Positions 4,121 to 5,630 of a stretch of DNA of 5,978 nucleotides are shown in pieces. Where the stretch lies: assembly GCA_001871015.1 (NCBI GenBank), contig MNUO01000058.1, positions 1 through 5,978 on the forward strand, given 5' to 3'. The DNA comes from Candidatus Desantisbacteria bacterium CG1_02_38_46 (GTDB taxonomy: Bacteria; Desantisbacteria; UBA1551; UBA1559). The translations under genes and the position numbers were made by a program. The notes under the pieces were generated by a model. The model made no database searches. It was not told the origin of the DNA and was given only the letters and a program-made list of their open reading frames with translations. The first letter of the stretch is position 1, and the number at the start of each line of letters is the position of its first letter.

Positions 4121-4471
4121 ATGGAAGAGCAAACACAAAAATTATTTTACACAATTGCTGAGGTTAGCAAGATAACAGGAATAAAATCCTATATCCTTCG
4201 CTACTGGGAATCCGAATTCGCCCAACTGAAACCGGAAAGGGAGAGGGGGAGACGCCGATACAGAAACGAGGACGTCCATATGATACTGCGCATAAGGAAG
4301 CTTCTCTACGAAGAGGGCTATACCATCACCGGCGCCAAATCTAAGTTGAGGGAAGAAAGAAAATCAAAACCTACACCTGAAGATAAACAGAAAATTGTCG
4401 AATTGAAGAAACAACTGCAGGAATTACTAAAAATGGTAAAGAAACAAGAAAAATCAGACCTGAAGGTCTGA
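4121..4471 (+). CDS. Small MerR-type transcriptional regulator
   Basis: A 116-residue regulator with an N-terminal winged helix-turn-helix of the MerR family. FYTIAEVSKITGIKSYILRYWESEF (9-33) is the HTH, LKPERERGRRRYRNEDV (36-52) the arginine-rich wing, and MILRIRKLLYEEGYTITGAKSKL (54-76) the following helices. Residues about 86-112 are rich in Lys, Glu and Leu and look like a short coiled coil for dimerisation. There is no cysteine and no ligand-binding domain, so it is not a metal sensor; its target and signal are unknown. It belongs with the short MerR proteins often encoded next to HU/IHF genes. GAGGG (4112-4116), overlapping the HU stop, is its ribosome binding site. The last five codons and the stop are part of a palindromic repeat unit, so the SDLKV tail may be repeat-derived. 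Confidence 0.93.
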   Translation: MEEQTQKLFYTIAEVSKITGIKSYILRYWESEFAQLKPERERGRRRYRNEDVHMILRIRKLLYEEGYTITGAKSKLREERKSKPTPEDKQKIVELKKQLQELLKMVKKQEKSDLKV

Positions 4472-4528
4472 GTTACGTAACTCAGGACTTTAGTCCTGAC
4501 CTGCTGTAACTCAGGACTTTAGTCCTGA
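4454..4528. repeat. REP/REPIN-like array of three 18-base hairpin units
   Basis: Three near-equal palindromes follow one another. U1 (4454-4471) is TCAGACCTGAAGGTCTGA, a 7-bp stem with a TGAA loop. U2 (4482-4499) and U3 (4511-4528) are identical, TCAGGACTTTAGTCCTGA, a 7-bp stem with a TTTA loop (or 8 bp with a 2-base loop). U2 and U3 each carry GTAAC directly on the left, making a perfect 23-base direct repeat with period 29 (4477-4499 and 4506-4528). U1 carries the complement, GTTAC, on its right, so U1 and U2 are head to head and share an 18-base perfect palindrome (4468-4485, CTGAGTTACGTAACTCAG). A short conserved foot plus hairpin, in inverted pairs, is how REP/REPIN elements mobilised by RAYT transposases are built. 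Assignment to that class is an inference. No U-run follows on the + strand, so it is not a classical terminator for the merR transcript. Confidence 0.8.
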
Positions 4529-4545
4529 AGGTTATGGATAACTTT

Positions 4546-4554
4546 TGGTATAAT
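4546..4554 (+). promoter_or_regulatory. Extended -10 promoter for the AIR-synthase-like gene
   Basis: TGGTATAAT is a perfect extended -10 element (TG, one base, TATAAT at 4549-4554). It lies just after the repeat array and 29 bases before the ATG at 4584. Transcription would start near 4561 and give a short leader of about 23 bases. A -35 box is weak: CTGAAG at 4525-4530, with 18-base spacing and 3 of 6 matches, would overlap the end of repeat U3. Extended -10 promoters often do without a good -35. It is the only clear promoter-like site I noted between genes in the window. Confidence 0.6.
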
Positions 4555-4583
4555 TTCCTTAGCTATCAAGAAATTACAAAAAT

Positions 4584-5630
4584 ATGTTTAAGATAGGTAA
4601 GTTACCCCAGGGTTTTTTGGAATATCTAATCAAGAAATATACCCATAAGAATAGCCGCATTGTCATAGGTCCAGGAATAGGAAAGGATGCAGCGGTCATT
4701 GACATAGGTAATAAATATCTTATTGCAAAAACTGACCCTGTAACGCTTGCAAGTAAAGATGCAGGCTGGTATCTGGTGAACATAAATGCAAATGACATAG
4801 CCTGCATGGGTGCAAAGCCACGGTGGCTTATTGCAACGCTTCTCCTGCCTGAGAAAAATACTACGAATAAACTGATTGAGGAAATTTTTGCTTCTGTTTC
4901 AAAAGCATGTAAAAAACTCGGCATTACTCTTTGCGGCGGGCATTGCGAGATAACTTATGGTATAGACCGTCCTATAATCATAGGCGCAATGTTCGGTGAA
5001 GTAGCAAAAAATAAACTGATTAAAGGCAAAGTGCAAAACGGCAACGACATTATACTTACCAAAGGAATTGCCATTGAAGGAACTGCGATAATCGCAAACG
5101 AGAAAGAGACATTTCTAAAAAAGAAATTTTCTGCTGCTTTTATCAGAAAAGCAAAAGCATATCTGCATAATCCCGGTATAAGCATAGTCAAAGAAGCCCT
5201 CCTTGCCAGCTCGATTGTAAATGTTAACTATATGCACGACCCAACCGAAGGAGGACTTGCAACCGGATTATATGAGGTGACAAAAGCCTGCAACGCTGGA
5301 GTAATTGTTGAAGAAGATAAAATCCCCGTGTTTCCTGAATCAAGAATCCTCTGCAAGGAATTTGGCCTTGAGATTATGGGCACAATTGCATCGGGCGCCC
5401 TGATAATCGTGTGTAACCATAGAGATACACAGAGGATTATCAAAGTTCTTAATAAAAAGGAAATATCGGCAACTATAATTGGAAAAATTGTAGATAAAAA
5501 AACCGGTGCCAAATTAAAGGATGGGAAAGGCCGCCTCCACAATCTGAATCACTTCCCGCAAGACGAAATCACAAAAATTTATCCTAAAATAATGCGTGAA
5601 AAGAGGAGTAAAATACAGGGGGTGTATTAA
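4584..5630 (+). CDS. AIR synthase-related protein (PurM/HypE superfamily, HypE-like)
   Basis: A 348-residue member of the PurM superfamily of ATP-dependent enzymes (PurM, PurL, SelD, ThiL, HypE). The N-terminal ATP-binding half shows GPGIGKDAAVIDIG (29-42), AKTDPVTLA (48-56) and NINANDIACMGAKPRW (66-81), which supply the phosphate- and metal-binding acids D35, D51 and D71. GGHCEITYG (118-126) follows. The C-terminal half has MHDPTEGGLATGLYEV (217-232) and GLEIMGTIASGALII (261-275), closest to HypE. HypE ends in a conserved cysteine that carries the carbamoyl/cyano group for the NiFe-hydrogenase cofactor; this protein ends in SKIQGVY with no cysteine nearby, so it is probably a HypE paralogue with another, unassigned substrate. 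No Shine-Dalgarno stands out before the ATG, but an extended -10 promoter lies 29 bases upstream. The next gene begins one base after its stop. Confidence 0.85.
   Translation: MFKIGKLPQGFLEYLIKKYTHKNSRIVIGPGIGKDAAVIDIGNKYLIAKTDPVTLASKDAGWYLVNINANDIACMGAKPRWLIATLLLPEKNTTNKLIEEIFASVSKACKKLGITLCGGHCEITYGIDRPIIIGAMFGEVAKNKLIKGKVQNGNDIILTKGIAIEGTAIIANEKETFLKKKFSAAFIRKAKAYLHNPGISIVKEALLASSIVNVNYMHDPTEGGLATGLYEVTKACNAGVIVEEDKIPVFPESRILCKEFGLEIMGTIASGALIIVCNHRDTQRIIKVLNKKEISATIIGKIVDKKTGAKLKDGKGRLHNLNHFPQDEITKIYPKIMREKRSKIQGVY
5618..5624 (+). promoter_or_regulatory. Shine-Dalgarno-like GGGGGTG before the last gene
   Basis: AGGGGGTG (5617-5624) differs from the ideal AGGAGGTG by one base. It ends 7 bases before the ATG at 5632 and lies inside the last codons of the preceding gene. 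It fixes the start of the 3'-truncated final gene. Confidence 0.6.

Follow-up and report, generated by a model that had tools for sequence, protein, structure and literature searches.

A GTAAC-tagged REP-family hairpin array in a Candidatus Desantisbacteria genome and the RAYT genes of its relatives

REP sequences of the GTAG superfamily carry a tag of GTAG, with GYAG, GYRG, GTRG, GTMG or GTGG variants (PMC3733652). In Escherichia coli, the REP tag is contacted by TnpA residues that include Q95 and R104, which are relatively conserved in group 3 (PMC8266576, PMC6006769). Cutting in the Marinomonas system is guided by the tag, with GTAG leading to CT or CA and GTAC to GA or GT (PMC8266576). The present locus bears on the recognition of the foot tag by a RAYT (REP-associated tyrosine transposase) and on the joint evolution of RAYTs and REP families. 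Experimental work on RAYT tag reading has, to our knowledge, so far been based on GTAG systems. Here, we report an array in a Desantisbacteria genome that is very probably a REP-family cluster of three units (an inverted REPIN-like pair plus one tandem copy), set in a composite repeat, moved by a RAYT and tagged with GTAAC.

The window (the whole stretch of 5,978 nucleotides analyzed; positions 1 to 5,978 of contig MNUO01000058.1) was taken from the assembly of Candidatus Desantisbacteria bacterium CG1_02_38_46 (GCA_001871015.1; 1.73 Mb in 133 contigs, 88% complete and fragmented). The array lies in the gap separating two codirectional genes, and its features are as follows.

4121 to 4471, + strand: MerR-family regulator gene (Pfam MerR_1, 7e-20)
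4445 to 4453, + strand: CAAGAAAAA, at the left edge of the composite or flanking it, echoed by CAAGAAA past the tail (4567 to 4573)
4454 to 4476, − strand: Unit 1, hairpin TCAGACCTTCAGGTCTGA on the minus strand plus a GTAAC foot (GTTAC at 4472 to 4476 on the plus strand)
4454 to 4471: Unit 1 hairpin as read on the plus strand, TCAGACCTGAAGGTCTGA
4477 to 4499, + strand: Unit 2, GTAAC foot (4477 to 4481) plus hairpin TCAGGACTTTAGTCCTGA (4482 to 4499)
4500 to 4505, + strand: spacer CCTGCT between Units 2 and 3
4506 to 4528, + strand: Unit 3, Unit 2 in tandem copy, GTAAC foot (4506 to 4510) plus hairpin TCAGGACTTTAGTCCTGA (4511 to 4528)
4529 to 4566, + strand: conserved composite tail AGGTTATGGATAACTTTTGGTATAATTTCCTTAGCTAT (about 25 genome copies)
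4584 to 5630, + strand: AIR-synthase/HypE-like gene downstream of the array (Pfam AIRS and AIRS_C; NCBIfam hypE below its cut-off)

An earlier note on this DNA had described three 18-base hairpins separated by 10 and 11 bases, the second and third identical with GTAAC on the left and the first with GTTAC on the right; the coordinates (4454 to 4471, 4482 to 4499, and 4511 to 4528) and the sequences agree. The foot of Unit 2 abuts that of Unit 1, giving an inverted pair with feet inside, and the perfect 18-base palindrome around which the note had placed these two units head to head is CTGAGTTACGTAACTCAG at 4468 to 4485. Unit 2 and its spacer form a 29-base period that was also seen in other arrays. 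Unit 1 is an "ACC" stem variant with a TTCA loop on the foot strand, and its stem (GACC/GGTC versus GGAC/GTCC) is, as the note had suspected, a compensated change, one of several such stems in the family genome-wide. At up to three mismatches, the 18-mer occurred in none of 200 window shuffles, and the folded strand of the array (z = −5.4) was more stable than in all 200; the array is therefore not a chance product.

The MerR-like gene ends inside Unit 1 (stop codon at 4469 to 4471), which supplies its final codons, TCA GAC CTG AAG GTC TGA (SDLKV-stop). Elsewhere in the window, the plsY reading frame holds another repeat, CATTTGTCATTTGTCAAGACCTGACACCT (2450 to 2478), and stays unbroken; the core of this repeat had 57 matches in the stretches read, paired copies contributing both of their ends.

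Copies were counted across the window's genome, the unit-by-unit counts (feet, spacings, and stems) covering 1.38 of its 1.73 Mb. The pattern TCAGGACTNNAGTCCTGA, which is its own reverse complement, matched 207 sites with two mismatches or fewer (control, 10); preceded by GTAAC, it gave 192 matches under the same limit (84 + 108; reversed control, 0), and the wider family pattern GTAACTCANNNCTTYAGNNNTGA gave 250 in the full 1.73 Mb (control, 0). A unit confined to this place would have spoken against the REPIN-like reading in the earlier note, and with hundreds of family matches this is not the case. Each unit has a GTAAC foot on the 5′ side of a hairpin, whose stem is 7 bp long and whose loop is TTTA or TTCA. 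The stems TCAGGAC, TCAAACC, TCAGACC, TCAGGGC, and rarer ones each come with their own complement, positions 4, 5, and 6 being variable and their partners varying to match. Because the loop strand matches the foot strand in every oriented unit, the units are asymmetric despite their near-palindromic hairpins. In the 1.38 Mb, GTAAC stood ahead of a perfect hairpin (7-bp stem, 4-base loop) 212 times versus 14 times for GTAGC and 0 to 3 times for each of six other feet, and we therefore file the family as GTAG-related rather than as a member of the GTAG superfamily. Units occur as singlets, as inverted pairs with feet inside (most commonly 10 bases apart; 29 cases in 1.38 Mb) or outside (2 or 5 bases apart; 27 cases), and in tandem arrays, with many tandem pairs. 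The family thus shows the hallmarks of REPs (a palindromic repeat of 20 to 40 bases in high copy, mainly between genes, with an unpaired, conserved, strand-specific tag 5′ of the hairpin) and of REPINs (frequent inverted pairs at fixed spacing). An Rfam search gave no score near any gathering threshold. The same genome also holds a second hairpin family, whose foot is GTAGTGG and whose stems, GCAGAG/CTCTGC and TCGAG/CTCGA, are compensated (e.g., L153:446 and L150:3487), including about 70 copies of one 18-mer.

About a hundred unit clusters are scattered across the intergenic gaps. By a simple open reading frame (ORF) call, just 31 of 266 units fall largely within ORFs, so that 88% are mostly outside them though 88% of the DNA is coding, as the placement between genes foreseen in the earlier note would have it. 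Clusters lie near gene 3′ ends (median distance, 23 bases; 63 of 93 within 60), and the stop of a called gene falls in a cluster or within 5 bases of one in 33 cases. This position and the strength of the hairpins would suit intrinsic terminators or RNA-stabilizing hairpins that selection maintains at gene ends, rather than mobile DNA. A terminator, however, has no need of a fixed unpaired GTAAC foot, of a loop whose sequence follows the foot strand, or of almost the same sequence at hundreds of sites, and the rarity of feet other than GTAAC on perfect hairpins argues against it as well; we regard this explanation as extremely unlikely.

The window array sits in one of about 25 copies of a composite repeat of roughly 110 bases, ordered as (C/T)AAGAAAAA, the inverted pair with optional extra units, and AGGTTGTGGATAACTTTTGGTATAATTTCCTTAGCTAT; contig C25 (L134) has the identical order, three units and then the tail. 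Neither this composite nor the departure of the GTAAC foot from the canonical GT[AG]G had been noticed in the earlier note. Other units lie within a second element bearing inverted repeats AGGTGTCAGGTCTTGACA. Either structure could be a classical miniature element (MITE) mobilized by a DDE transposase that duplicates its target, with the hairpins as passengers, and the constant tail, the copy number of the composite, and the CAAG/TTAA sequences that echo at both of its ends are in keeping with this. We nevertheless consider a MITE unlikely, since most clusters have neither the tail nor the inverted repeats, the direct-repeat signal at the composite ends is weak (P about 0.04), and it is the units, not the tail, that are common to the three other repeat-bearing genomes (G001, G087, and G171) and flank RAYT genes, the tail not being found in 147 kb of G001. 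Weak direct repeats would be unusual for Y1 transposition and count against movement by a RAYT, which nonetheless remains the preferred reading.

The tail also bears on a regulatory explanation, in which the array would be a conserved cis-regulatory site or promoter, its hairpins and TATAAT-bearing tail controlling the HypE-like gene. An extended −10-like motif, TGGTATAAT, lies in the tail at 4546 to 4554, about 30 bases ahead of the start codon; several composite copies stand directly before a gene in the same direction; and Unit 1 on the minus strand, where TTTTTCTT follows its hairpin, resembles an intrinsic terminator. Against this, a search for a −35 partner of the motif found none, and copies precede many unrelated genes and face either way, about half pointing away from the next gene. 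At the orthologous MerR locus of G001, the HU and gpsA neighbors are kept and there is no GTAAC unit, but instead a pair of GTAGG-tagged hairpins beyond the gene. The window array is therefore not a fixed regulatory site, and conservation before this one gene, which the earlier note had named as a result that would overturn its reading, does not hold. The regulatory explanation is largely refuted and in our view very unlikely. Taken by itself, the tail was likewise rejected as a promoter (orientation about even, no −35 box).

Several DnaA-related features were observed in the genome. In the window, the tail has a near-DnaA box, TTATCCATA, on the minus strand (4531 to 4541, one mismatch), and 12 composite tails have a perfect box, TTATCCACA; this is only a lead, since the box was noticed post hoc and counts differ widely among 9-mers of that composition. 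One of the Y1 proteins of the genome (L202:6886-7869) carries a DnaA-C domain, and one composite adjoins a cluster of DnaA boxes on contig C72 (L163), which may be the origin.

Among 386 genomes, the family was present in four (the window's genome; G001, 118 matches; G087, 30; and G171, 10) and absent from 382. G001 is the only genome of the same order that was compared, G087 and G171 being more distant; many G001 units carry the compensated stem GGGC/GCCC. The exact 18-base palindrome is frequent in Nostocales genomes (L016 to L095), mostly behind GTAG, a sharing whose sequence pattern would fit either common ancestry or convergence on a favored hairpin. Single GTAAC units were also seen in one IMG/VR contig and in contigs assigned to Magasanikbacteria bins (L021, L026, and L096), reflecting either misbinning or transfer. 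The earlier note had suggested that the family might not yet be described for this lineage; a literature search on Desantisbacteria repeats returned nothing relevant, and no report of REPIN/RAYT systems in Desantisbacteria was found in it.

Two of the four repeat-bearing genomes hold a RAYT clade. On contig C23 of G001, there are two REP-associated tyrosine transposase frames of 163 codons, 86% identical, with the HUH motif and with H71, H73, and the catalytic Y130 invariant in the alignment (NCBIfam REP_Tyr_transpos NF047646, 94.7 bits against a cut-off of 80; Pfam Y1_Tnp). GTAAC units bracket each of these genes, with 7 and 10 within 600 bases; a G001 RAYT lies on the minus strand at L239:1743-2222. 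In G087 (L259, G087:C37), a RAYT gene 50% identical to these also has GTAAC units on both sides; it is interrupted by TAG at the conserved Trp94 position, either a broken gene or a wrong base in the assembly. The earlier note had proposed to look for a Y1 (RAYT) gene with the same repeat beside it; G001 has two such pairings, and G087 has one in which the gene is interrupted. A cognate RAYT was not found in the fragmented, 88%-complete assembly of the window's genome, a negative of little weight, since part of the genome is missing from it and assemblies tend to break at repeat arrays. With this linkage in G001, the inverted pairs, the copy number, and the intergenic placing, the REPIN-like reading in the note is upheld. 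The Y1 genes of the window's own genome were rejected as partners, being of other types (one carries a DnaA-C domain, another has a stop within its Y1 region, and one is an IS200 fragment at a contig end) with no units within 2.5 kb. At about 3161 to 3393 of L297 (G001:C49), a decayed RAYT remnant (52% over 33 residues to the GTAAC RAYTs) is flanked by GTAGG-tagged hairpins, a possible sister family within G001.

Aligned to the E. coli TnpA-REP structure 4er8, the G001 RAYT has its His110 on Q95, keeps W94, H101, and R104, and has Asp for E100. Among 28 homologues, position 95 is His in all three RAYTs adjoining GTAAC units (one of which also has one GTAG-type match nearby) versus Gln in every one of the 18 whose neighboring repeats are all GTAG; of two further His RAYTs, a separate one at L275 (G187) adjoins GATAG-tagged hairpins (plus one GTAGC match), and the other has no recognized tag. 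The GTAAC RAYTs form one clade (support, 96/90) nested among GTAG RAYTs, and the association of His with GTAAC is therefore probably one event. To judge from these alignments, the association is suggestive, though not proof, that residue 95 may read the foot. By analogy with the guide model, an A-A-C guide would predict cutting at GT. We find it evenly balanced whether the RAYT clade exchanged a GTAG guide tag for GTAAC as Q95 became His, the repeats then amplifying to about 250 units in one candidate-phylum genome; this would be a natural retargeting of a single-strand transposase, its cut being predicted to shift from CT or CA to GT.

In the mechanism that we prefer, the units would be nonautonomous single-strand elements, foot and hairpin being recognized on single-stranded DNA by a RAYT (a Y1 HUH transposase) that would cut beside them and move or copy the unit into intergenic gaps. 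The RAYT of the window's lineage would read GTAAC, not GTAG, and the tag would direct cutting at GT dinucleotides, as in the guide model of the Marinomonas REPtron; mobilization in the window's genome, the cutting site, and the reading of the foot by residue 95 are what we infer. Local effects would be secondary: insertion would have given the MerR-like gene its stop codon, and the hairpins and tail may alter transcription locally.

Members of the GTAG superfamily, including cyanobacterial ones (Di Nocera et al. 2013, PMC3733652), are likewise short stem-loops with an unpaired tag at one end and compensated stems, are intergenic as singlets, dimers, or groups, and share the same 18-base palindrome in Nostocales; the window family differs in its tag, and GTAAC is absent from the text of the REP surveys searched, that one included. 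REPIN/RAYT systems (Bertels and Rainey 2011, PMC3116915) also have inverted pairs, a RAYT with the same repeats, tandem clusters, and compensatory changes. The spacings of 71 and 110 bases in P. fluorescens are, however, far wider than those here (10, or 2 to 5), and in the window family the pairs abut at their feet and arrays mix stem variants. TnpA-REP subclasses (Quentin et al. 2018, PMC6006769) share the HUH/Y1 protein, REPs within 1 kb (a REPtron), and W94 and R104 equivalents; canonical REPs have a GT[AG]G foot there, and the sections consulted describe none with GTAAC. REPtron Mb of Marinomonas, with a group 3 TnpA-REP (PMC8266576), has a perfect stem and TTTA loop (T12, T13, and A15 selected in Mb) and conserved D100, H101, and R104 equivalents, as here, and its tag guides the cutting site, as predicted for the window family; unlike it, the Desantisbacteria RAYT has His at the Q95 equivalent, and the tag is GTAAC. 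REPIN/RAYT systems are hereby extended to the Desantisbacteria lineage, and the guide model can be tested directly on a non-GTAG clade that has intact RAYT genes and a matching change in a contact residue. By most tests, the window repeat is of a known kind, a RAYT-associated REP/REPIN; its novelty is the GTAAC tag, and it is of value chiefly as a naturally occurring test of tag reading by RAYTs.
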